NCBI GenBank assembly: GCA_022340665.1
Contig: JAJDNM010000149.1
Span: forward strand, 1-64,000
Direction of reading: 5' to 3'
DNA: 64,000 nt
Origin: Acidobacteriota bacterium
GTDB taxonomy: Bacteria > Acidobacteriota > Thermoanaerobaculia > Thermoanaerobaculales > Sulfomarinibacteraceae
The notes under the pieces were generated by a model that was not told the origin of the DNA, made no database searches, and worked only from the letters and a program-made list of their open reading frames with translations. This document shows, in pieces, positions 2,116 to 63,890 of the stretch. Position numbers and translations under genes: made by a program. How positions within the stretch are numbered: position 1 is the stretch's first letter; each line of letters opens with the position of its first letter.

Positions 2116-3795
2116 ATGAAGCGTTTCTTTCTTCTCTGTGCCGTCGTATCCGTGCTTGCCTGCTCGCCCGCTGAGGATCCCGCGGATCTGGTCCTGATGG
2201 GCGGGCGAATCGTGACCATGGATGACAGCAACCCTGAAGCCACTGCTCTCGCCGCTCGTGATCATGAGCTGGTGGCTGTCGGATCTGAGAAGGAGATCGA
2301 TCGATTCATCGGACCGGACACCGAAGTCATTGATCTTGGCGGCGCAGTTGCTGTTCCGGGTTTGATTGATGCTCACGCTCATTTCCTCAGCATCGGGCGG
2401 GCCAGGATGCAGCTCAACCTGAACGGGGTGGGGGGGTTCGACGAGATCGTCGCCATGGTGGAAGCGGCGGTCGCCGAGGCCGAGCCGGGCCAGTGGATCT
2501 TTGGTCGTGGCTGGCACCAGGAGAAGTGGAAGAAGCCTCCCGAGAAGAGCGTGTCAGGGCTGCCCTACCATGACGATCTCAGCGCAGTGTCGCCCGACAA
2601 CCCGGTGATGCTGACCCACGTCAGCGGCCACGCGTCGATGGTCAATGCCGTCGCGCTCGAGCTGGCCGGCATCGATGATCGGACTCCGGATCCCCCCGGT
2701 GGGGAGATCGTACGAGATGCTCGAGGAAGGGCCATAGGGGTCCTTCGCGAAACCGCCGCGAATCTGGTCGCCGACTACTTCGACAGCGAGTGGGATGAAG
2801 CCACCGTGCGCCGCATGGCGGAGCTCGCGGATGCCGAGTGTCTGTCGAAAGGCCTGACGTCCTTTCACGACGCTGGCACGGGCTTTCGCAATGTGGAGGT
2901 CCTGAAATCCCTTGCGGAATCGGGCGATCTCGGTATCCGGCTGTGGGTAATGCTCTCCGAAAACAACGAATCGCTTGCCGAAAACCTGGATGGCTACGGA
3001 GTGTATCGCGTCGGCGACGCCCACCTCACGGTTGGCGGCATCAAACGGCTGGTGGACGGTGCGCTCGGATCGCACGGAGCCTGGTTGCTCGAACCCTACA
3101 CCGATCTTCCCGAGAGCACGGGTCTCAACACCTACGCGCCGGAAGACCTTCGCGAAACCGCACGACTCGCAGCGGAGAACGGGCTGCAGTTGTGCTCCCA
3201 CGCCATCGGTGATCGAGCCAACCGTGAAACGCTCGATGTCTACGAAGAGACGATCCGGTCCAGACCGGATGGCCGCGATCTCAGATGGAGGGTGGAGCAC
3301 GCTCAGCATCTTGATCCGGCCGATCTTCCACGTTTCGCCGAGCTCGGCGTCATCGCGGCCATGCAGGGGGTGCATTGCACCTCGGATGGTCCGTGGGTTC
3401 CGGTCAGACTCGGTGAGGATCGCGCCCGCGAAGGCGCTTACATGTGGCGCGATTTGCTCGATTCCGGAGCGGTGATCGCCAACGGCACGGATGCACCGGT
3501 GGAAGACGTAGATCCGCTGCCCTCCTACTACGCGTCGATCACGCGCCGGCTGCCGGATGGTTCCGCCTTCTACCCTGGCCAGGTCATGACCAGAATGGAG
3601 GCGTTGCGATCCTACACTCTGGACGCTGCCTACGCGGCCTTCGAGGAGGATATCAAGGGCTCGCTCGAGCCCGGGAAACTGGCCGATATCACCGTTTTTT
3701 CGAGAGATATCCTCGAGATTCCAGCCGAGGAGATCCTCGACACGCGGGTTCTTTACACCATCGTAGGTGGGGAAGTGCAGTACCGCGCGAATTAG
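2116..3795 (+). CDS. Lipoprotein amidohydrolase, YtcJ-like (Amidohydro_3)
   Basis: This is a 559-residue metal-dependent hydrolase of the amidohydrolase superfamily. I chose the ATG at 2116 because GGAGG lies 5 bp upstream and it gives a clean lipoprotein signal with the lipobox VLAC (Cys16); an in-frame ATG 33 bp upstream has neither. Landmarks in order are GGRIVTMDD at the start of the beta-sandwich, the metal-binding DAHAHF motif (~residue 90), a histidine in HAIGDRA, a late GTDAPVED and the closing LEPGKLADITVF. YtcJ-like enzymes hydrolyse N-acyl or amide substrates; the real substrate cannot be read here. The stop codon lies in the first unit of a heptad repeat. Confidence 0.9.
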   Translation: MKRFFLLCAVVSVLACSPAEDPADLVLMGGRIVTMDDSNPEATALAARDHELVAVGSEKEIDRFIGPDTEVIDLGGAVAVPGLIDAHAHFLSIGRARMQLNLNGVGGFDEIVAMVEAAVAEAEPGQWIFGRGWHQEKWKKPPEKSVSGLPYHDDLSAVSPDNPVMLTHVSGHASMVNAVALELAGIDDRTPDPPGGEIVRDARGRAIGVLRETAANLVADYFDSEWDEATVRRMAELADAECLSKGLTSFHDAGTGFRNVEVLKSLAESGDLGIRLWVMLSENNESLAENLDGYGVYRVGDAHLTVGGIKRLVDGALGSHGAWLLEPYTDLPESTGLNTYAPEDLRETARLAAENGLQLCSHAIGDRANRETLDVYEETIRSRPDGRDLRWRVEHAQHLDPADLPRFAELGVIAAMQGVHCTSDGPWVPVRLGEDRAREGAYMWRDLLDSGAVIANGTDAPVEDVDPLPSYYASITRRLPDGSAFYPGQVMTRMEALRSYTLDAAYAAFEEDIKGSLEPGKLADITVFSRDILEIPAEEILDTRVLYTIVGGEVQYRAN

Positions 3796-3907
3796 GAATT
3801 GGGGATTCGGAATCCGGGATGCCCCGCATCCCTGCCGGCTGCGCAATTTACCCCGGGGGGGTGTGGGGCGGGAAATCCGAAATTCGAAATCCGAAATTCG
3901 AAATATG
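3789..3907. repeat. Heptad element E1: two 7-bp arrays around a GC-rich core
   Basis: The left arm is GAATTAG, GAATTGG, GGATTCG, GAATCCG, GGATGCC (3789-3823). A GC-rich core ends in GTGTGGGGCGGG. The right arm is GAAATCC, GAAATTC, GAAATCC, GAAATTC, GAAATAT (3872-3906). The TAG in the first unit is the stop codon of the amidohydrolase. Confidence 0.75.
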
Positions 3908-4751: not shown

Positions 4752-4773
4752 TTCGTGAATAATGCGGGCTAAA
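4752..4773. repeat. Diverged end fragment of the 18,108-18,291 inverted-repeat element
   Basis: TTCGTGAATAATGCGGGCTA matches the terminal repeat TCATGAATAGTCCGGGCTAG at 18272-18291 with three mismatches over the shared 18 bases. It lies directly upstream of the cobalamin riboswitch. Confidence 0.55.
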
Positions 4774-4778
4774 CTCGG

Positions 4779-4932
4779 CACGTCGCGAGTGTGGGGAAGA
4801 CGGTGTGATTCCGTCGCGGTCCCGCCGCTGTGACCGGGGACGATAGCCGGGGATACCACTGTGATCGCAGGATCATGGGAAGGTCCGGCAGGTAGGAAGA
4901 TCCGGGAGCCAGAAGACCCGATCCGCGACGTG
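4779..4932 (+). promoter_or_regulatory. Cobalamin (B12) riboswitch aptamer
   Basis: The closing stem P1 is perfect: CACGTCGCG (4779-4787) pairs with CGCGACGTG (4924-4932). Between them lie the family's conserved blocks in the right order: GGGAAGACGGTG, ATTCCGTCGCGG, CCCGCCGCTGTGA, then GGGAAGG and the B12 box at its 3' end (GGGAGCCAGAAGACC). These are hallmarks of the adenosylcobalamin-sensing class. It precedes an intrinsic terminator and btuF, so it should switch the uptake operon off when B12 is plentiful. Confidence 0.96.
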
Positions 4933-4994
4933 CGGTGAGACTCTCGTGGGTTGGAGTTCGAGTCGTGGTGGCAGCACCCGGGTGAAAAACGGTA

Positions 4995-7752: not shown

Positions 7753-9273
7753 ATGAGGAAATGGCGGCTTGGCACGATCGGACTGCTGTTTGTAGCGATG
7801 ATTGGCGTTGGGACTACCACCGAAGGTCGGGATGCGCCACGATTACCGTTTCCGATTCCGACGTCCACTCTCACTCCGTCGCCCGAACCGACTCAGGAAA
7901 CGCCGGCACCCACGCCAACTCCTGAGCCACCTACGGATCCAGGCTTGGCCGACAGGGCGTCGGGAAAACCCGGAGACGAGCCACAGCCCGCCGAAACTGC
8001 CGACGAAACTCCAAAGGGAGAAGAGGAGACCAACCCGGGCGAGGTCGCGTTCACCGATTATCAACCCTTCGATCTCGAAGAGATCGAAGCGGAACCGATG
8101 CAGACGAAATGGGGAAACTTTGTCAGCGGCGTGCGTGGAATTTCCCGATACAGTTTGTTTGACGGGAAGGTCAAGTTCAGGATCGGCGGCAAGGCTCAGT
8201 TCGATGCTACGGCCGGTGTGAATGACGGCAAATACGAAGAATTCTTTGCCCCCGTCGAGTCGGATATCAGCGTGCGCCGATTCGAGATCTTTGCCGCCGG
8301 ACGAATCCGCGAATTCAACTTCACCGTGGCGTTCGATTTTGGTGCCGACTGGGGGATTGGCGATGCGTGGATCGAGGGTGCGAGGGGTGGCTTGGAGGTA
8401 TGGGGTCACCATCTCGGGAAGCTTCGCGTTGGCTGGATGCGTGAACCCTTTAGCCTTGAGCGGCAGACCGGCGCGTACAACCTCGGGCTGATGGAACGAT
8501 CGCTGCCGGTGCAGACAATGGCGCCCGGCTCCAACATCGGTGCGATGATCCACGACTCGGGATCGAAGGAACGCTTTACATGGGCGGTCGGAGTCTTTTC
8601 GGTCGGTCAGAGCAACGACAAAAACGCCAGCACGTCTCTCCTGTCACTGACCGGGCGCACGACTTATCTGCTCAAATACAGCGATCAGGGACGAATGCTT
8701 TTCCATGTCGGCCTGTCGGTGAGTTCGAGGTCGCCGACAGGGGGCGACATTCGATACCGATCGCGACCTGAGGCAAGGTTTGTCGATTACCTGGTCGACA
8801 CCGGAGCCATCGATGCGAGCCACGTCACACTCATCGGTCTCGAGGCTGCGGCCGTTCGCGGCCCATTGTGGATCACGGCGGAACACATCCAAAGCCGGGT
8901 TTCGGCACAGTTGGTCGAAGATCCCACCTTCATGGGCTCATACATCAAGGTCGGATGGTTCTTGACCGGCGAGAGCCGACCGTACCGTACCAATAGCGGC
9001 ATTTTTGACCGGCGCCGTCCGACCGTCAAATACACCAAGGGAAACCCGTTCAAGAAGAAGAATGGAGGGGCCTGGGAGGTCGTCGGACGGCTGTCGAGAA
9101 TCGATCTGACTGACGGTCTGGTCGACGGGGGCGAGCTGACCGATATCAGCGCAGCCCTGAGCTGGTACCCCAATGCGACGACCCGGATTCAGCTCAACTA
9201 CGTTCGCGCCAGCCCGAAGAATCGGGGTGCGGCGAACATCTTCCTGCTCAGGTTGCGGTATCAGCCCTGGTGA
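7753..9273 (+). CDS. Outer-membrane porin, phosphate-selective porin O/P-like
   Basis: 506 residues, starting at the ATG at 7753 just before a Sec signal peptide (MRKWRLGTIGLLFVAMIGVG). An in-frame extension upstream would run through btuC in another frame and is rejected. Residues ~35-100 form an unusual Pro/Thr/Glu-rich low-complexity linker with PTPTPEPP repeats. The barrel begins near FRIGGKAQFDA and contains the OprP-like segments VRRFEIFAAGRI, GHHLGKLRVGWMREPF and GSNIGAMIHD. It ends in LLRLRYQPW, a typical C-terminal aromatic for barrel insertion. It may follow the btu operon in the same transcript. Ion specificity cannot be judged. Confidence 0.85.
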   Translation: MRKWRLGTIGLLFVAMIGVGTTTEGRDAPRLPFPIPTSTLTPSPEPTQETPAPTPTPEPPTDPGLADRASGKPGDEPQPAETADETPKGEEETNPGEVAFTDYQPFDLEEIEAEPMQTKWGNFVSGVRGISRYSLFDGKVKFRIGGKAQFDATAGVNDGKYEEFFAPVESDISVRRFEIFAAGRIREFNFTVAFDFGADWGIGDAWIEGARGGLEVWGHHLGKLRVGWMREPFSLERQTGAYNLGLMERSLPVQTMAPGSNIGAMIHDSGSKERFTWAVGVFSVGQSNDKNASTSLLSLTGRTTYLLKYSDQGRMLFHVGLSVSSRSPTGGDIRYRSRPEARFVDYLVDTGAIDASHVTLIGLEAAAVRGPLWITAEHIQSRVSAQLVEDPTFMGSYIKVGWFLTGESRPYRTNSGIFDRRRPTVKYTKGNPFKKKNGGAWEVVGRLSRIDLTDGLVDGGELTDISAALSWYPNATTRIQLNYVRASPKNRGAANIFLLRLRYQPW

Positions 9274-9375
9274 CGAATTCGGAGTTGAAAGTTGAGAGTT
9301 TCCCCACGCACCCGAGGAGTGAGGGAGGGTGGGTGGAATTCTCGGTCCTCAACTCTGAACTCTCAACTCCGAAAG
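9274..9375. repeat. Heptad element E3 between convergent genes
   Basis: The left arm (GGAGTTGAAAGTTGAGAGTT, 9281-9300) and the right arm (9352-9371, AACTCTGAACTCTCAACTCC) are imperfect reverse complements with a 7-bp period. The core GTGAGGGAGGGTGGGTGG is G-rich. It can fold as a long hairpin and could end transcription in both directions. The meaB stop codon is the TGA of a GAGTTGA unit. Confidence 0.75.
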
Positions 9376-10443: not shown

Positions 10444-11712
10444 ATGAACGGTATCTGGAGATCCGTCGCCATCATCTCGGTTCTTGCCACCGTGGTCGGC
10501 TGCCGCACTTTCAGCCCGACGCCGATGGATGAAGTAGGATTCATGGACAGGGTCGAGACCCGCACCGAATCTGGCGTCACGGCGTCGGCGGTAGTACTCA
10601 CGCCGGAGGAAGCCAAAGCGGCATTCGACTGCAAGCTTGACAAGAAAAAGATCCAGCCGGTATGGCTCGAAATCACGAACGGTACCGAGGAGGAGATGTT
10701 GTTCATGCCGCGCAGCATCGACCCTGACTACTTCTCTCCTCTCGAAGTGGCACAGAAGACGGCATGGACCTGGTCAAAACAGGCCAACCAGCAGAAGAGA
10801 TGGTTCTACTACGAAAACCAGATACCGCTGGTGATTCCTGCTGGTGAAACGGTGTCGGGATTCGTCTTCGCCAACCGAAGCCGGGGACTGCGGTGGTTGT
10901 TGGTCCAGGTCTTCTCCGAGAACGACGACGTGCAGATCGAGTTCGTGCACGAAATCCCGGGATTCAACGCCGATTTTCACAAGCTCGAGTGGGGAAATCT
11001 CTACCAATCGCTCTACCCGGATCAGGAAATCGTCGAGCTCGCGGAACCGTCGGATCTGCGCAGGTGGATCGAGCAGCAGCCTGCCACGGTGACCAACGCT
11101 GACGGGAGCAAAACCGGTGACCCGCTGAACCTGGTCATTATCGGTGATGGCGAGGCGGTCTTTTCCGCCTTCCTCCGCTCCGGTTGGGATCCGACGGCGG
11201 CCATATCGGCGGCCACGGTGGCCAAGGTGGGTGCATTCGGCCTTTTCGGTGGCGCCTATCGCTACTCGCCTGTCAGTGATCTCTATGTCTTCGGCAGGTC
11301 ACAGGACATGGCGCTGCAGAAGGTCCGCTCCAACATCCACTACCGGAACCATCTGAGACTGTGGCTGGCGCCGGTGAAGTTTCAGGGATTGCCGGTGATG
11401 ATCGGTCAGATCAGCCGCGACATCGGCAGCCGCTTCACCACAAAGAGCTCAACGCTTACAACACACCGCATCGATCCCAACGTCGACGAGACCCGCTCGA
11501 CACTGATACAGGATTTCATCCACGCCCAGGCGCTCAAGGCGTTTGCGAGAGCGGGCGGAGTGGGGTTCGTGTCCCGGGATGCGCCGCGCGGCAATCTCAC
11601 CGGTGATCCTTGGTTCACCGACGGGAATCGAGCTGTCATGCTGCTGACGAAGGAACCTGTTAGCCTCATCGAAATCGACTGGTTCGACTGGGGGGAGGAC
11701 GAAGGAAATTAG
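10444..11712 (+). CDS. LssY C-terminal-domain lipoprotein
   Basis: 422 residues from the ATG at 10444; the longer in-frame start at 10312 would overlap meaB and lacks a signal peptide. The signal peptide ends with a lipobox (VVGC, Cys20). The N-terminal half (~40-215) is an Ig-like, poorly conserved region. The C-terminal half (~220-410) resembles the LssY C-terminal domain: LNLVIIGDGEAVFSAFLRSGWDPT, SPVSDLYVFGR and a predicted core around IHYRNHLRLWLAP. The biochemical role of this domain is unknown. It is divergent from meaB (97 bp apart). The stop TAG lies in the first unit of a heptad array. Confidence 0.8.
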   Translation: MNGIWRSVAIISVLATVVGCRTFSPTPMDEVGFMDRVETRTESGVTASAVVLTPEEAKAAFDCKLDKKKIQPVWLEITNGTEEEMLFMPRSIDPDYFSPLEVAQKTAWTWSKQANQQKRWFYYENQIPLVIPAGETVSGFVFANRSRGLRWLLVQVFSENDDVQIEFVHEIPGFNADFHKLEWGNLYQSLYPDQEIVELAEPSDLRRWIEQQPATVTNADGSKTGDPLNLVIIGDGEAVFSAFLRSGWDPTAAISAATVAKVGAFGLFGGAYRYSPVSDLYVFGRSQDMALQKVRSNIHYRNHLRLWLAPVKFQGLPVMIGQISRDIGSRFTTKSSTLTTHRIDPNVDETRSTLIQDFIHAQALKAFARAGGVGFVSRDAPRGNLTGDPWFTDGNRAVMLLTKEPVSLIEIDWFDWGEDEGN

Positions 11713-11782
11713 GAATTCGGAATCTGGTATTCGGAATTCTGCATTGGGGATGGCGACGACGGCCTGAAGCCCGGGGCTTCAG
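11706..11782. repeat. Heptad element E4 plus 3' stem-loop
   Basis: Six units (AAATTAG, GAATTCG, GAATCTG, GTATTCG, GAATTCT, GCATTGG; 11706-11747) begin on the stop codon of the LssY gene. An 8-bp stem CTGAAGCC/GGCTTCAG (11764-11782) then overlaps the stop codon of mutB on the other strand. The junction is convergent. Confidence 0.7.
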
Positions 11783-15940: not shown

Positions 15941-15982
15941 TGGACCTCCGTTTCGATCGTAATGTAACCCGGCCGGGTCTCT

Positions 15983-16047
15983 TGGTCGCGGACCCGACTC
16001 GGCACGGCGCCTTGCTGCCCTCGCTACGAGACCTCATGAACAATGCG
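15983..16047. repeat. Partial, diverged copy of the 18,108-18,291 element
   Basis: Read on the minus strand, this stretch follows the left end of the 18,108 element for about 60 bases: TTCATGAGGTCTCG, then a GCGAGGGC-type block and GCCGTGCC, with scattered differences. It lies between acs and mutA, in the opposite orientation to the left end of the intact copy. Confidence 0.6.
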
Positions 16048-16069
16048 GCCGAGGTCGAAGTTCCTGACC

Positions 16070-18034: not shown

Positions 18035-18107
18035 GGGGCACCTCTCATTGATGCGGTGTCGCAAAACACTCTAGCAAAGTCCCGGTGAGATTCGGAACGC
18101 GTTCGCG

Positions 18108-18291
18108 CTAGCCCGGACTATTCATGAGGTCTCGTGGCGAGGGCGGCGAGGTGCCGTGCCCAATGGGGTTTGCGACCCGAGGGGCGCGGAGGCGTACTTG
18201 ATCGTACGTTGAGCACCCCGAGGCGAGCAAACACCGTTGGGTGGGGTGCATCGCCGATTGCAGCAGAGGCTTCATGAATAGTCCGGGCTAG
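18108..18291. mobile_element. MITE-like element with perfect 20-bp terminal inverted repeats
   Basis: CTAGCCCGGACTATTCATGA at 18108-18127 is the exact reverse complement of 18272-18291. The 144 bp inside are GC-rich and themselves partly palindromic (GGTTTGC against GCAAACACC, and GTACTTGATCGTAC near the centre), so the whole 184 bp can fold into one long hairpin. There is no ORF. Related end fragments occur at 4752, 15983 and 20545. Its right end supplies the stop codon of the next gene. Confidence 0.7.
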
Positions 18292-45211: not shown

Positions 45212-46339
45212 ATGAACGACAAGAAAGCAGATCTCGCCGGTCCGGGAATCAGTACTTACGAGGAGGTGGCGAAGATCCTGCCCACCGACTACGAGCCGCT
45301 TCAGAAACCTCTCGAACGCATGAAAGCGGTGTACGAGGCCAAGCAGTTTATTGAGAAAGGCCTTGCCGAGGAGCTGAACCTGACAATGGTCCAGGTGCCA
45401 CTGATCGTCGACCGCGACAGTGGAGTCAACGACTACCTCGATCGAGACGGATCACGGACCCCTGTCGACTTTCAATGCGGGCTCGGTCTCGAGACTCCGA
45501 TACAGGCTCAGGTCGTGCAGGCGGCCACCAAATGGAAGAGGATGGCGCTCGCCCAATTCGGTTGTGAGGTGGGTGAGGGCATCAACACTGATATGCGTGC
45601 GGTGCGCAAGGACTACTTCCTCGACCACGATCATTCGTCCTACGTTGACCAGTGGGACTGGGAAAAGGTCATCACCCCCGAGCAGCGAAATCTCGACTAT
45701 CTGACCGAGACAGTCAAAAAGATCTGGAAGGTCATCTACGGCGCAGGCCAGCATGTCAGGGAGCTGTTTCCGGAGCTCAGGAACGACAGATACCCGGATT
45801 TTCCCGAAGAACTTACCTTTATTCACGCTGAAGAAATCCTTGAGCGCTACCCCGATCTGCCGCGAAAGCAGCGCGAGACCAAGATCATTCAGGAGTATCC
45901 GGCGATATTCATCTACGGCATCGGCTGGCCGCTCGCCGACGGCTATCCGCACGAGATGCGGGCGGCCGACTACGACGACTGGGTCACAGAGACCACATCG
46001 GCTGACGGCCGACCGATGCACGGCCTCAATGGCGACATCCTGGTCTGGAACCCGGTCACCAGGCGGCGCCACGAGCTCAGCTCGATGGGGATTCGAGTCA
46101 CCAAGGACACGATGAAGGTGCAGCTCGAAATGAGTGGTCAGCTCGACTTCCTCGAACTGCCATATCACCAGGCGATCCTCAACGACGAGATTCCGCTCTC
46201 GATCGGTGGCGGCATCGGCCAGGCTCGAACGTACATGTACCTCCTTCGTACGGCTCACCTCGGCGAGGTGACAGTCACCGTGTGGCCGAAGCAACTGAAG
46301 GAGATATGTGCGGCGAGGAACATACACGTTCTCGAGTGA
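45212..46339 (+). CDS. asnA: Aspartate-ammonia ligase (asparagine synthetase A)
   Basis: 375 residues, somewhat longer than the ~330 of E. coli AsnA. Class II tRNA-synthetase-like fold signatures are clear: VQVPLIVDRDSGVNDYL, GINTDMRAVRKDY, HSSYVDQWDWE, YPAIFIYGIGWPL, and the closing LPYHQAILNDEIPLSIGGGIGQ. It makes asparagine from aspartate, ammonia and ATP in the cytosol. AGGAGG lies 7 bp before the ATG. An insertion of roughly 30 residues around DRYPDFPEELTFIHAEEILERYPDLP accounts for much of the extra length. Confidence 0.96.
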   Translation: MNDKKADLAGPGISTYEEVAKILPTDYEPLQKPLERMKAVYEAKQFIEKGLAEELNLTMVQVPLIVDRDSGVNDYLDRDGSRTPVDFQCGLGLETPIQAQVVQAATKWKRMALAQFGCEVGEGINTDMRAVRKDYFLDHDHSSYVDQWDWEKVITPEQRNLDYLTETVKKIWKVIYGAGQHVRELFPELRNDRYPDFPEELTFIHAEEILERYPDLPRKQRETKIIQEYPAIFIYGIGWPLADGYPHEMRAADYDDWVTETTSADGRPMHGLNGDILVWNPVTRRRHELSSMGIRVTKDTMKVQLEMSGQLDFLELPYHQAILNDEIPLSIGGGIGQARTYMYLLRTAHLGEVTVTVWPKQLKEICAARNIHVLE

Positions 46340-46348
46340 CCTCGACCA

Positions 46349-46447
46349 CGAATTCAGAATTCGGAACTCTGAATTCGGAATGCCATCAGACTATTTCGGA
46401 TTCCCTCCACCGGGTGATGGGAGGGGGGATTCAGAATTCAGCCCGCC
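46349..46447. repeat. Heptad element E10 between convergent asnA and ridA
   Basis: The left arm is CGAATTC, AGAATTC, GGAACTC, TGAATTC, GGAATGC (46349-46383). The core holds CCCTCCACCGGGTGATGGGAGGGG, a hairpin. The right arm is GATTCAGAATTCA (46429-46440) and includes, on the minus strand, the TGA stop of ridA. Confidence 0.72.
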
Positions 46448-47112: not shown

Positions 47113-47233
47113 GCCATCAAAATGCGCATCCAGCGATCTTTTTGGCAGACGGCCGTACGGCTTCCACCGCCCGCCCACGGCAATAGGGCCCCGACCGTCC
47201 GTTCTCCTGCTTCGGGCACTTCAATCTCGTTGT

Positions 47234-47273
47234 CGAGCCGTCAAGCCGTGAAGCCGTTGAGCCGTAAGGCCAC
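47234..47273. repeat. 8-bp tandem array with AGCCGT core
   Basis: Units CGAGCCGT, CAAGCCGT, GAAGCCGT, TGAGCCGT and a decayed AAGGCCAC follow without gaps. Six bases are constant and two vary. It lies in the 174-bp convergent gap between yidD and the hydrolase gene, where a heptad element would otherwise be expected. Confidence 0.75.
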
Positions 47274-49700: not shown

Positions 49701-50762
49701 ATGGATAGACTGATCGAAGTGGTTCGGAGCCTGATACCGATGACGATCGTGATCATCATCGGTGTCGGTGCCATGTCCATTCTCAACCGACGCATCGTCA
49801 AGAAAAGTGCCGATATGGCGGAAAAGGGCACCTTCAGGCGACAGATGGCCATGACCTTCACGTCGCTCATCTTCGTTGTCGCTATCCTCGTCACGGCTCC
49901 GCTCGATGACGGGGTTCGCGGAAACCTGATTTCCCTCTTCGGAATCGCGCTTACAGGTGTCATCGCGTTGTCCTCGGCGACTCTGGCATCGAACGCGATG
50001 GCGGGTCTGATGCTTCGCGCGATTGAAAACTTCAAACATGGCGACTTCATCAGTTGCGGCGATCTCTTCGGTCGGGTGACCGAACGCGGCCTCTTCCACA
50101 CCGAGATCCAGAATCAGTACTCGGATCTCATCACCCTGCCGAATCTGTACCTCGCCACCAACCCGGTCACGGTCGTTCGTTCGTCAGGCTCGTTCGTGGC
50201 TGCAAGACTCTCGCTGGGATACGACCTCCAACACGACGAAATCGAGGCTCTCCTTCTCAGCGCTGCGGAGCACACCGGTCTGGTCGAGGCCTTCGTGCGC
50301 ATTCGTGAGCTCGGAGATTTCTCGGTGACCTACGAGGTCGTCGGAAGGCTAGCAGACACCAAGAAGTTCCTCGGCGCGAAGTCGACCCTCAACCGAGCCG
50401 TGCTCGACACCCTGCATCAGGCCGGTGTCGAGATCGTCTCGCCGACCTTTGTGTACCAGAGGCGGGCACAGGCTGACCGGGCGTTCATTCCTGAGATTCC
50501 CTCCGACAAGCCGGTCGAACAGACCCGGGAGCGGGCTCCCGATGCGCTTGTCTTTGACAAAGCTGACCAGGTGGAGAAGGTGGAGGATCTCCGCGCCCGC
50601 CTGACCGAGCTCGACAAGGAGATCGGCGAGCTTGGTGAGAAGGCGAAACGTGCGACTGAAGACGAGGCGGAACAGATCGAAGAAACGATCACGATCCGCA
50701 AACGGGTTCGCGAGCGGCTGGTCGCGCGAATCGCTGAACTCGAAAAGAAGGTGGACGAGTAG
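49701..50762 (+). CDS. MscS-family mechanosensitive channel
   Basis: 353 residues, GAGGAGG before the ATG. Three membrane helices: IPMTIVIIIGVGAMSIL, MTFTSLIFVVAILVTA, and the pore helix LTGVIALSSATLASNAMAGLMLRAIENF, which ends as in MscS. The beta domain holds GDFISCGDLFGRVTERGLFHTEIQ and TLPNLYLATNPVTV. A C-terminal coiled coil (~285-353, LRARLTELDKEIGELGEKAK) is longer than in E. coli MscS. It should release solutes on osmotic downshock. Confidence 0.93.
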   Translation: MDRLIEVVRSLIPMTIVIIIGVGAMSILNRRIVKKSADMAEKGTFRRQMAMTFTSLIFVVAILVTAPLDDGVRGNLISLFGIALTGVIALSSATLASNAMAGLMLRAIENFKHGDFISCGDLFGRVTERGLFHTEIQNQYSDLITLPNLYLATNPVTVVRSSGSFVAARLSLGYDLQHDEIEALLLSAAEHTGLVEAFVRIRELGDFSVTYEVVGRLADTKKFLGAKSTLNRAVLDTLHQAGVEIVSPTFVYQRRAQADRAFIPEIPSDKPVEQTRERAPDALVFDKADQVEKVEDLRARLTELDKEIGELGEKAKRATEDEAEQIEETITIRKRVRERLVARIAELEKKVDE

Positions 50763-50774
50763 TCGTCCACCCCT

Positions 50775-50918
50775 CCTCGCATTTCGGATTTGGAATTTCC
50801 CGCCCACCCTAAAAGCGTTTTCTGGGGTCGTACTAGAGAGCAGTACACTGAAAGCCCGCACCGAGAATCCAACATCCAGCATCCAGAATCCAGCATCCAG
50901 AATCTCGACCCTCAACCC
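50775..50918. repeat. Heptad element E11 between convergent genes
   Basis: A short left arm (GCATTTC, GGATTTG, GAATTTC; 50779-50799) leads into CCCGCCCACCC and a GTACTAGAGAGCAGTAC palindrome. The right arm is GAGAATC, CAACATC, CAGCATC, CAGAATC, CAGCATC, CAGAATC, TCGACCC, TCAACCC (50863-50918) in perfect 7-bp phase. The last unit holds the stop codon (TGA on the minus strand) of the aminotransferase gene. Confidence 0.82.
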
Positions 50919-54697: not shown

Positions 54698-54732
54698 TAT
54701 CGCAGGTCCCACCCCATGCTCACCTGATCCGC

Positions 54733-54919
54733 GATCGTTGATACTTGATACTCGATGCTGGATGCTCGATGTCAAAAAATTGGATGTTAGATATTGGATA
54801 TTAGATATCGGATGTCAGATGTTGGATCTTCGGAGTTCTGCGCGGACTGGTGAGAACAGGTGACCTCGGACGGGCGGGCGGGAAACCCGAATCTGAATTA
54901 CTGACGCCCTGCGGGCGTC
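54733..54919. repeat. Heptad element E12: fourteen unbroken 7-bp units
   Basis: From 54733 to 54830 fourteen units stay in phase: GATCGTT, GATACTT, GATACTC, GATGCTG, GATGCTC, GATGTCA, AAAAATT, GGATGTT, AGATATT, GGATATT, AGATATC, GGATGTC, AGATGTT, GGATCTT. A GGGCGGGCGGGAAACCC core follows, and then a perfect stem GACGCCC/GGGCGTC (54903-54919). This copy lies between divergent genes and fills most of the ~380-bp gap, so promoters must sit beside or within it. Confidence 0.85.
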
Positions 54920-56113: not shown

Positions 56114-57128
56114 TCTCAGCCTCGGCCAGTCGGTCGATCTCGCCATCGAAGATGCAATGGCGCGCGATGAGACGATTGTGCTTATCGGGGAGGATGCACC
56201 GATGCTCCGGGCGCCGCTCTACGCCAGATTCGGTGCCAGTCGGGTCCTGGCTGCGCCGATCAGCGAGTCGGCGTTTTTCGGCGTTGCAGCCGGCGCCGCG
56301 ATGGCCGGCTTGAGGACTATCGTCGAGCTCTACATGGTCGACTTCATCGCGGTGGCCTACGACGCGGTACTCAACCACATGGCCAAGCTCGAGGGTTTCT
56401 CCGGAGGAAACTGGAAAGCTCCCGTAGTGATCCGCGCGCCGTCGGGAGGCTGGTACGGTGACGGAGGTCAGCACGGGCAATCACTGTGGGGATCCTTGGC
56501 TTCGATCCCCGGCCTCACGGTGGTGGCCGCCTCGACCCCGGCCGACGCCTACGGCCTGATGACCGCCGCCCTGGGCCATGACGGCCCGGTAGTCTTTTTG
56601 GAGCCGAAACTGCTGTCCGAAGAGTGGCTGGAATTCCTCGGTCGCTGTGGACGTGACTCCGTGAGTTTCGACGTGCCGGCCGGCGGCACGGTGGGTCCGG
56701 TGCCGGATCCGCCGCACGAGACGCCCTTCGGGAAGGCGGCGATTCGGCGCGAGGGAAAAGACATCACCATCGCCTCTCTGGCAGTGGGAGTCCATCGCGC
56801 TCTCGAGGCCGCGACGAACCTCGATGCGAGCGGAGTGTCGTGCGAGGTCATCGACCTGCGATCGCTGCGTCCGCTTGACGTCGAGACGATTGTCGGCTCG
56901 GTGGACAAGACCAATCGCCTTTTGGTGGTCGACGAGGACTACCGCGATTTCGGCCTGGCCGGTGAGTTGGCAGCGGTTTGTCTCGAGGCAGGTCTCGCGC
57001 CTCGCTACGCCCGTGTATGCGTCGAGGACACGCTGCCCTACGCCCGTCATCTCGAAAAGGCCGCGCTGCCGAATGTCGATCGCATCGTCGAAGCCGCCAA
57101 ATCCCTCGCAGAAAATGGTGATCAGTAA
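56106..57128 (+). CDS. TPP-dependent dehydrogenase E1 beta subunit
   Basis: 340 residues. The catalytic glutamate is in PISESAFFGVAAGAAMAGLRTIVE (Glu54), and GGQHGQSLWGSLASIPGLTVVAASTPADA carries the active-site histidine. The C-terminal transketolase domain shows EVIDLRSLRPLDVETI and LLVVDEDYRDFGLAGEL. These are normal for PdhB/AcoB-type subunits, in contrast to the altered alpha partner. Substrate (pyruvate, acetoin or branched 2-oxoacid) cannot be told. The TAA stop lies in a small GATCAGT-type heptad run. Confidence 0.9.
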   Translation: MRNLSLGQSVDLAIEDAMARDETIVLIGEDAPMLRAPLYARFGASRVLAAPISESAFFGVAAGAAMAGLRTIVELYMVDFIAVAYDAVLNHMAKLEGFSGGNWKAPVVIRAPSGGWYGDGGQHGQSLWGSLASIPGLTVVAASTPADAYGLMTAALGHDGPVVFLEPKLLSEEWLEFLGRCGRDSVSFDVPAGGTVGPVPDPPHETPFGKAAIRREGKDITIASLAVGVHRALEAATNLDASGVSCEVIDLRSLRPLDVETIVGSVDKTNRLLVVDEDYRDFGLAGELAAVCLEAGLAPRYARVCVEDTLPYARHLEKAALPNVDRIVEAAKSLAENGDQ

Positions 57129-57146
57129 TCAGTGATCGGCAGGGAT
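57119..57146. repeat. Short heptad run at a convergent junction
   Basis: GATCAGT, AATCAGT, GATCGGC, AGGGATC run from 57119. The E1 beta stop codon TAA falls across the first two units. It is the smallest copy of the family. Confidence 0.45.
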
Positions 57147-58138: not shown

Positions 58139-58492
58139 ATGAGCAGCAAAACACGAGGCCGCTCCGTGTATTCGACGGAACGGGGGCGTGTATGTCCCAC
58201 CTGCGGGTGGCCGCAGAAAAGTTGCCGCTGCTCATCGCGGATGGAACCGGCCGTGCCCGAAAGACTCACCGCGAGGCTCCGGATCGAGAAGGCCGGGCGG
58301 AAGGGCAAAACGGTGACCGTTGTCGAGAGCCTGCCGCGCAACCGTTTCTTTCTCAAGGATTTGGCCGCCGAGCTGAAGCGCGCCTGTAGCTCGGGCGGCA
58401 AGGCTGGAGAAACTCACGTCGAGGTGCAGGGAGATCACCGGGGGAAAATCAGGGAGCTGTTACGCGCCAAAGGGTGGACGGTGAAGGGATAA
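58139..58492 (+). CDS. yciH: SUI1/YciH-family translation factor
   Basis: 117 residues. A short N-terminal zinc-like motif (CPTCGWPQKSCRC) precedes a SUI1 domain: LRIEKAGRKGKTVTVVESLP, LKDLAAELKRACSSGGKAG and VEVQGDHRGKIRELLRAKGW. YciH is the bacterial relative of eIF1 and influences start-codon fidelity. Length and the order of parts are normal. The TAA stop is the first trinucleotide of a heptad array. Confidence 0.92.
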   Translation: MSSKTRGRSVYSTERGRVCPTCGWPQKSCRCSSRMEPAVPERLTARLRIEKAGRKGKTVTVVESLPRNRFFLKDLAAELKRACSSGGKAGETHVEVQGDHRGKIRELLRAKGWTVKG

Positions 58493-58586
58493 TTCGAAAT
58501 TCGGAATTTGGAATGCTGAATTCTGAATTCTTATCCGCCCTCTCGTTCTCCGGGGGGTGGGGCGGGAATTCAAAATTCATATTTCG
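58490..58586. repeat. Heptad element E13, supplying both flanking stop codons
   Basis: The left arm is TAATTCG, AAATTCG, GAATTTG, GAATGCT, GAATTCT, GAATTCT (58490-58531); its first three bases are the yciH stop. The core is ATCCGCCC...GGGTGGGGCGGGA. The right arm GAATTCA, AAATTCA, TATTTCG (58566-58586) contains the TGA stop of the merR gene on the minus strand. The convergent junction consists entirely of the element. Confidence 0.85.
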
Positions 58587-59434
58587 CTCTCTCGTGTCAA
58601 GCGCCTCAGGATTCGTGCGACTTCCTCCAGGAGAGGGAGGTGCCTCTCGCTCAGACCGCGGGCTGACAGGATGACCTCTTCGGTCACCCGCGCACGGGTC
58701 CAGGTTTCGGTCGTGCGGAGGTAGGCTCGGGGCTGGCGCGCGGTCACGGCATTGAGTCGGGCGAGTGCTTCCCTGAGCTCGTCTTCCACCGCTGGCGCCG
58801 GATCGCTCAGCCGCGGCGGCACCGGTGCGCCGGGGACCTTTTCGATGGCGTCGAGGGTCAGGCGATGAAACGCCCCTGAAGGGGTGTCTCGCGGCGCCGA
58901 CCCGGACGGCATGTCGGTGAGCGATTGATACATCCTCGTCGGGAACGCGCGATCCGTTCGAGCCTCGGGCACAGGCTCCCTCAACGAGCTCATCGGTCGA
59001 TCCGACGGTGCGGTTTGCACACCCTCCGCGCGGGGAGCGGCAGCCATCTTTTCGTACTCGTTGCGGCCTGCGATCAAGTGCTGGTGTCCTTTCGCCGGGG
59101 ACTCCGACCGCTCTTCCTCTGCGGGTCGCCGTGGAATTTCTGGCGGGGGCTCGCGACCCTCGACGATATCCACCACGGTCTCCGCCGGCGTGCTCTGGAA
59201 GTAGTCCCTGAAATCGACAAGCGTCATGGGCCCCATTTCGCCTCGGTCCTGGAGATCTCTGATCTTTCTGATGAAACGCAGCCGGTCGAGGAAGATCTGG
59301 GAGTAGCGGGTGCGGGGGCCCCTGCGCCCCACCCTCGGGAGCAAATTCTGCTGCACGTAATAGGCGATCGTTCGTCGATCGAAGCCGGTAAGCTCCTCGA
59401 TTTCGCCGATCGTGTAGGTGGATGACTCGCTCAT
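58577..59434 (-). CDS. MerR-family transcriptional regulator
   Basis: 285 residues from the ATG at 59434. The MerR winged helix covers residues ~7-75: YTIGEIEELTGFDRRTIAYYVQQNLLPRVGRRG, then YSQIFLDRLRFIRKIRDLQDRG. A long Pro/Ser-rich disordered linker (~90-210) leads to a C-terminal helical region (VEDELREALARLNAV, LSERHLPLLEEVARILRRL) that may dimerise or sense. No cysteine metal site is present, so it is not a metal sensor of the classical type. It may start without a leader (see promoter). Confidence 0.85.
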   Translation of the reverse strand: MSESSTYTIGEIEELTGFDRRTIAYYVQQNLLPRVGRRGPRTRYSQIFLDRLRFIRKIRDLQDRGEMGPMTLVDFRDYFQSTPAETVVDIVEGREPPPEIPRRPAEEERSESPAKGHQHLIAGRNEYEKMAAAPRAEGVQTAPSDRPMSSLREPVPEARTDRAFPTRMYQSLTDMPSGSAPRDTPSGAFHRLTLDAIEKVPGAPVPPRLSDPAPAVEDELREALARLNAVTARQPRAYLRTTETWTRARVTEEVILSARGLSERHLPLLEEVARILRRLTRESEI

Positions 59435-59440
59435 CTCTCG

Positions 59441-59470
59441 AAGATAGCAAAAGGTCGAAATTACTGTCAA
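59441..59470 (-). promoter_or_regulatory. Putative promoter of the MerR gene
   Basis: On the minus strand a perfect TTGACA (59470-59465) is followed after 18 bp by TATCTT (59446-59441). The ATG begins 7 bp after the -10, so the transcript would be leaderless or nearly so. The spacer contains GTAATTTCGAC. A long 18-bp spacer is consistent with MerR-type autoregulation. Confidence 0.45.
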
Positions 59471-63775: not shown

Positions 63776-63890
63776 GTGCACCGACAAAGCCACAACCGGT
63801 GAAAGCCGGCGCCGGAAAGCCACGGGTCCTCGTTTCCTCCGCGTTGGGATGACCGCGGTCAGGATCCCAAGATGGCTGGGCTGCCGAAGG
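63776..63890 (+). promoter_or_regulatory. GEMM-I riboswitch (cyclic di-GMP or cAMP-GMP)
   Basis: The conserved blocks are in order: GACAAAGCC, the CCGGT-GAAA-GCCGG tetraloop stem (63797-63810), GGAAAGCCACGGGTCC, a variable P2 arm ending GGATCCC, the receptor-like CCCAAGATGG, and GGGCTGCCGAAGG. CAAAGCC pairing with GGGCTGCC replaces the more common CAAACC/GGGTTGCC by compensating changes. The layout matches Geobacter-type GEMM-I RNAs. It sits about 50 bp before a start codon. Which dinucleotide it binds cannot be told. Confidence 0.85.

Follow-up and report, generated by a model that had tools for sequence, protein, structure and literature searches.

Heptad elements at gene ends in the window

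A heptad-armed hairpin, made up of an array of 7-bp units, a GC-rich core and an inverted array, filled the whole space separating yciH from a MerR-family regulator gene (positions 58490-58586 of the window, the 64,000-nucleotide stretch G000:C149:1-64000 from a draft genome of 3.95 Mb and 153 contigs, here called G000). This genome is most likely that of an acidobacterium of the Thermoanaerobaculia, as loci from a Thermoanaerobaculales MAG encoded proteins with up to 87% identity and G000 carries a DsrP-like gene. yciH (58139-58492, plus strand; open reading frame with PF01253, 1.8e-15) encoded a SUI1-domain translation factor of 117 amino acids, and its stop codon, TAA at 58490-58492, formed the first three bases of a TAATTCG unit. 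The left arm, a period-7 array on the plus strand, ran from 58490 to 58531 (TRF, 58491-58530; period-7 scan, 58491-58531, score 22) and was followed by a core that was first C-rich and then G-rich (58532-58565) and by the inverted right arm (58566-58586, minus strand). The right arm was the source of the stop codon of the MerR-family gene (58577-59470, minus strand; PF13411, 6.4e-09; start uncertain, at 59434 or 59470), with TGA at 58577-58579 inside GAAATATGA. Core and arms folded together with a minimum free energy of -38.6 kcal/mol. A T tract was absent after the core of this element, and an Rfam search with the element returned no family. The first-pass annotation of this DNA had proposed that TAATTCG gives the TAA of yciH and the opposite arm the TGA of merR, and the coordinates bore this out.

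The same annotation named further stop codons in the window that fall in heptads, and these were also confirmed, E1 beta being the weakest. The element 3' of an amidohydrolase gene (3789-3904) consisted of arrays at 3789-3820 and 3872-3904, with TAG in GAATTAG (3789-3795); the orthologue in the related genome G004 likewise ended in TAG with a GAATTAG array. Between genes ending at 9273 (plus strand) and 9363 (meaB, minus strand) lay an element at 9274-9369, where the meaB stop belonged to a GAGTTGA unit ending at 9363; the same gap in genome G003 held a GC palindrome of ~32 bp, flush with the stops. The array on the TAG of an LssY-domain gene (11705-11745, plus strand, from the period-7 scan; AAATTAG at 11706-11712) had no second heptad arm and was followed by a GC hairpin, and in the G004 orthologue a different array occupied that stop. 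The ridA stop (minus strand) lay in TGAATTC (46434-46440), within an element at 46350-46440 that separated ridA from a plus-strand gene at 45212-46339; ridA stops in G003 and G004 carried arrays too, of different heptads. A class V aminotransferase gene (minus strand) had its TGA in GGGTTGA at 50912, within an element at 50777-50918 that faced a plus-strand gene at 49701-50762. At E1 beta the TAA was part of GTAATCA around 57126, in a repeat of only three units (57119-57138, plus strand) whose heptad, GTGATCA, is other than the GAATTCG kind. We looked for a second arm at this repeat and found none, and the G004 orthologue had no array and a different short tail.

Abundance and anatomy of heptad elements

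Statistics cover 863 kb of sequence from G000 and 1.45 Mb from the genome G009, with genes called by our own simple model, the first threshold of which missed yciH. Across the 863 kb of G000 there were 204 period-7 segments, where shuffled sequence had 14. A stricter threshold gave 177 heptad arrays, 7 of them wholly within called genes. The commonest units were GATGCTG, GAATTCG, GAATTAG and GAGTTTT, with no G tracts of three or more per unit. Arrays near stops read along the coding strand (72 of 84) and those near starts along the non-coding strand (37 of 49). Polarity was inward in 33 of the 49 gaps with multiple arrays, and 53 of 65 array pairs were more similar inverted than direct. The inverted arms of two-armed elements matched in family, with a mean 5-mer sharing of 0.35 versus 0.12 after re-pairing (z = 9.4). 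Cores were C-rich and then G-rich in 41 of 65 cases and reversed in one. The genome holds several hundred such intergenic elements, typically with two inward arrays of one heptad family and a short core.

When arrays were masked, 20 similar pairs were found among 120 array-bearing gaps, without a common core. By eye the cores seemed to share a conserved GAGAAC/GTTCTC motif, but it proved weak (5 of 65 cores). Unit order was not mirrored between arms, as in-register identity was 0.73 compared with 0.72-0.77 when shifted; each arm therefore turns over independently, and the idea that one arm is copied from the other on a hairpin template was rejected.

Folding of the elements was strong, with a median z of -4.5 versus shuffles over 57 elements and 82% below -2. 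Array density also peaked in convergent gaps (45 arrays in 10 kb; divergent gaps had 29 in 22 kb), there was a modest stop-side excess in co-directional gaps (see below), and the g7117/meaB gap of G003 held nothing but a GC palindrome that abutted the stops. These features would suit a 3'-end element, either a terminator or an mRNA stabiliser, which would act in both directions in convergent gaps and be kept behind the stop by selection. However, we regard such a role as an unlikely explanation for the elements. Divergent gaps bear elements too (20 gaps), the unmirrored unit order argues against selection for exact pairing, and the core between yciH and merR lacks a following T tract. The element between sufU and sufT leaves ~20 nt before the sufT start, in a place where the two genes overlap by 4 nt in G009. 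Among co-directional arrays, 26 of 95 end <40 nt from the next start, which disfavours a strong terminator since it would silence that gene.

Placement relative to stop codons

For the 177 arrays of the 863 kb, 59 array ends fell within -10 to +9 nt of a stop and 3 within that distance of a start, whereas uniform placement of single arrays within gaps predicted 20-31 stop ends and 11-19 start ends. This null hinted at a strong excess; under an element-level null, in which each whole element was repositioned randomly inside its gap and the 40 nt preceding a start were kept free, most of it was attributable to gap size. Stop-flush elements were not in excess in convergent gaps (15 versus 13.9 expected) and were modestly so in co-directional gaps (20 versus 12.0 ± 2.8, P = 0.006); when elements without room to move were held in place the overall excess was gone (59 versus 57). 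Element-free spacers were small, with medians of 50 nt in convergent and 23 nt in co-directional gaps. The flush fit of elements in convergent gaps, the yciH/merR site included, needs nothing beyond lack of room.

The whole stop codon was covered by the array in 28 of 84 near-stop cases, compared with 14.6 ± 2.5 by chance, for which unrelated gene ends were swapped in and arrays were extended by chance letter matches. In the same swap test arrays reached -7 or deeper in 17 cases (4.0 ± 1.9 expected), with no excess at exactly -2 to 0 (14 versus 16) and therefore no fixed register at the stop. Roughly 13 of the 84 near-stop arrays really took over the stop codon, beyond chance. Taken together, the co-directional excess and this takeover mean that space alone is not the whole story. 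The choice of stop codon at array ends did not differ from that of other genes (TGA/TAG/TAA, 44/14/6 versus 448/127/60).

It had been claimed that the precision of this placement exceeds simple spacer filling. That did not survive in convergent gaps and held weakly elsewhere, where the co-directional excess remained; across the 863 kb, stop-to-array distances did cluster at stops beyond random placement, to a smaller degree than claimed. The further suggestion that insertion targets stop codons found no support, as the distances were spread over about -20 to +20 nt with no fixed register.

C-termini of genes that abut arrays

Growth of arrays into genes up to the first unit that supplies a stop, with erosion of C-termini relative to repeat-free homologues, was one of two possibilities in the first-pass annotation, and slippage would be the means. 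The beyond-chance stop coverage (28 versus 14.6) is in keeping with such slippage. YciH ended in KGWxVKG* (KGWTVKG* in G000; VRG in G013) in G000, G003, G004, G006, G013 and G017. GAATTCG units were present at the yciH stop only in G000, GACAGTY arrays directly followed it in G006 and G017, and G003, G004 and G013 had no array there and the same C-terminus. SufU ended in VTTE* in G000 and G004, which have arrays, and in VSTE* or VTTE* in G005 and G010, which have none. The last Glu codon and the stop of sufU lay inside the heptad, GAA TGA replacing the GAG TAA or GAG TAG of outgroups, and no residue was altered by this replacement. The SufT tail was LGMF* or LDMF* in G000, G004 and G005, array or not, with the G005 contig stopping at the stop codon.

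Against G009, array-abutting orthologue pairs had C-termini within 2 residues in 14 of 17 cases (82%), compared with 65% of 127 control genes without arrays, and the median C-terminal difference was -1 residue. The three remaining pairs differed by -4, -9 and -123, the last being a doubtful pair. NCBIfam models for proteins with array-covered stops reached the ends: aconitase 745/745, dihydrolipoyl dehydrogenase 461/461, class V aminotransferase (TIGR01976) 401/401, RimI 132/132, MurB 359/362 and DsrP 344/346. RimI, MurB, YraN and SufU extended about 8-13 residues past the model end, possibly small array-coded tails, which would favour slippage into genes. SufU of G003 was ~14 residues short, with its stop in TTTTGAA (L284, 1400-1740), but the sufT frame was broken at the same place, beside two heptad elements, so the loss may be assembly damage.

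Erosion of C-termini was thus not found: lengths were equal with and without arrays, most pairs agreed within 2 residues, models reached their ends, and homologues without the repeat shared the C-terminus for yciH, ridA (within 4 residues), SufU and SufT. Slippage to a new stop is already largely refuted, and we give it hardly any weight. Arrays often supply the stop codon yet leave proteins unchanged.

Gain of elements and lineage-specific heptads

Five gaps carried an array only in G000 when compared with G009, and four of these were longer in G000, by +92, +146, +141 and +120 bp; the fifth differed by -303 (319 in G009 versus 16), for which our crude gene caller may be at fault. Two gaps with an array only in G004 compared with G000 were longer by +135 and +144 bp. 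The median length difference between orthologous gap pairs without arrays was 0. sufU and sufT, which overlap by 4 nt in G009, were separated by an element in G000 and G004. The elements come as discrete gains, not gradual growth, on the evidence of only about seven events from draft assemblies. In G004 two elements flanked sufT, and their near-identical cores in inverse orientation are a sign of local copying. Shortly 3' of the sufT stop, where G000 and G004 had GAATTNG arrays, G009 had its own GTGAAAC-type array (L280).

Discrete gains of ~92-146 bp, inverted arms and the inverse cores around sufT of G004 could point to a mobile element of REP or MITE type that prefers to insert at stop codons or terminator hairpins. 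We consider this improbable, because the distances are spread from -20 to +20 without an excess at -2 to 0, the flush fit in convergent gaps is explained without targeting, and masked cores are alike between sites in composition only. Y1 transposase (PF01797) matches in the genus in which GAATTCG arrays are expanded (g1) were no more frequent, at 0-6 per genome (5, 0, 1, 1 and 6), than in the rest of the family (0-17). Expansion driven by RAYT transposases was likewise unsupported, given the lack of a genus-specific excess in these counts.

GAATTCG-type arrays were expanded only in genus g1, where genomes had 408-1143 two-unit matches, compared with ≤44 elsewhere in the family. GTGAAAC matched 246 times in G009 and twice in the remaining 19 genomes, and GACAGTY occurred only in genus g3 (13, 22 and 99 matches). 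Which heptad a given stop receives therefore depends on the lineage, as at yciH, whose stop has GAATTCG arrays in G000 and GACAGTY arrays in another genus. A reversed control of the GACAGTY pattern gave 55 matches each in G010 and G018, hinting at another heptad in their genus (g7). Beyond this family, the matches listed placed GGAATTM arrays in many phyla, in a scan that had no control heptad and from which we claim no special abundance. GAATTMG arrays, among the matches listed, occurred in Acidobacteriota, Clostridia, Bacteroidota, Planctomycetota, Chloroflexota and cyanobacteria, many of them as inverted pairs with unrelated cores. In three Clostridia-type MAGs (L192, L239 and L214), inverted GAATTMG arms surrounded cores that recurred within the same 8-kb stretch, where whole elements may be copied locally. 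It is conceivable, though doubtful, that many phyla share some activity that writes inward-paired, genus-specific heptad arrays at gene borders and rewrites the same sites.

Proposed origin and comparison with known repeats

We think it probable that these elements are lineage-private heptad hairpins that have been gained on repeated occasions in very small spacers and are bounded on the outside by coding sequence. Elements would be added discretely, usually as ~90-145 bp, into spacers that are already very short, as seen in a handful of gaps. A gain would persist only when both flanking proteins stay intact, presumably through purifying selection, and the outer edge of an arm would therefore stop at coding sequence. 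Among coding letters, those of the stop codon and the wobble position of the final codon should be freest to change, so that an array can overrun and become the stop with the protein unaltered, as observed for SufU and YciH. Overshoot would be rare, adding or removing only a few residues. Heptads vary from genus to genus and the same stops have repeatedly acquired arrays, so the gene end appears to be a permissive place and not a recognised target. The heptads themselves were probably written by slippage turnover following the initial insertion.

Cyanobacterial STRR are intergenic arrays of heptanucleotide repeats, and the elements described here resemble them in that respect. Further parallels are the GGGAATC and GGGGA(C/T)T heptads of Xanthomonas and Nostoc, which form genome-wide intergenic arrays of 7-bp units (Rehm et al. 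2015, PMC4692102). Each Xanthomonas genome has 70-75 convergent inverted heptad pairs, and downstream arrays lie mostly 0-50 bp from the stop on the coding strand, some overlapping the stop, upstream arrays lie on the non-coding strand, and few are found in divergent gaps. The elements of G000 share the intergenic arrays, convergent inverted pairs, placement and polarity. Xanthomonas and Nostoc units have G tracts and form G-quadruplexes, as that source describes, whereas GAATTCG has no G tracts and a C-rich/G-rich core lies between the arms; units here are also diverse, with heptads private to a genus inside one family. A comparison of C-termini with repeat-free orthologues is absent from the parts of that study considered here (PMC4692102). 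Relative to that source, the placement rule is known, and the hairpin core, the genus dialects, the orthologue test of C-termini and the lack of G tracts are new.

The TAACTGA direct repeats of marine Beggiatoaceae are likewise 7-bp, tandem and intergenic, and 13 sets overlap the stop of the upstream gene (MacGregor 2015, PMC4679880). Forward TAACTGA repeats have stops in all frames, so that overlap is confined to the gene end. They differ from the elements here in lying mostly directly upstream of start codons, in having a single unit sequence and in including only one indirect repeat (PMC4679880). REP, BIME and REPIN elements associated with RAYT transposases also form hundreds of intergenic palindromic copies (PMC2817692, PMC3116915); unlike them, the heptad elements have no shared core and no genus-specific excess of Y1 transposases.

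The coincidence of repeats with stops thereby becomes a testable rule, in which elements come right up to the protein without entering it, through the freedom of stop and wobble positions. Within a single bacterial family several heptads, each private to a genus, arose repeatedly at the same gene ends, and the origin of bacterial heptamer repeats becomes approachable through comparison of close species.

Other repeats and riboswitches in the window

Two adjacent arrays of another heptad family (NGATNYT) lay on the 5' side of genes at 54726-54830. Octamer arrays (ACGGCTTG) occurred at 47232-47265 of the window and elsewhere in G000 (C29:33046-33599 and C20:8182-8640), and period 8 was also over-represented in the genome (45 versus 14 in shuffles). 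A second dispersed palindromic element of ~80-180 bp (CCGCATTATTCATGAGGTCTCGTGGCGAGG...), unrelated to the heptads, was present at 18035-18287 and 15941-16069 and in many copies in G000, G001, G002 and G004. The window also contained a Cobalamin riboswitch at 4770-4940 (91.9 bits) and a c-di-GMP-I riboswitch at 63779-63888 (49.9 bits).
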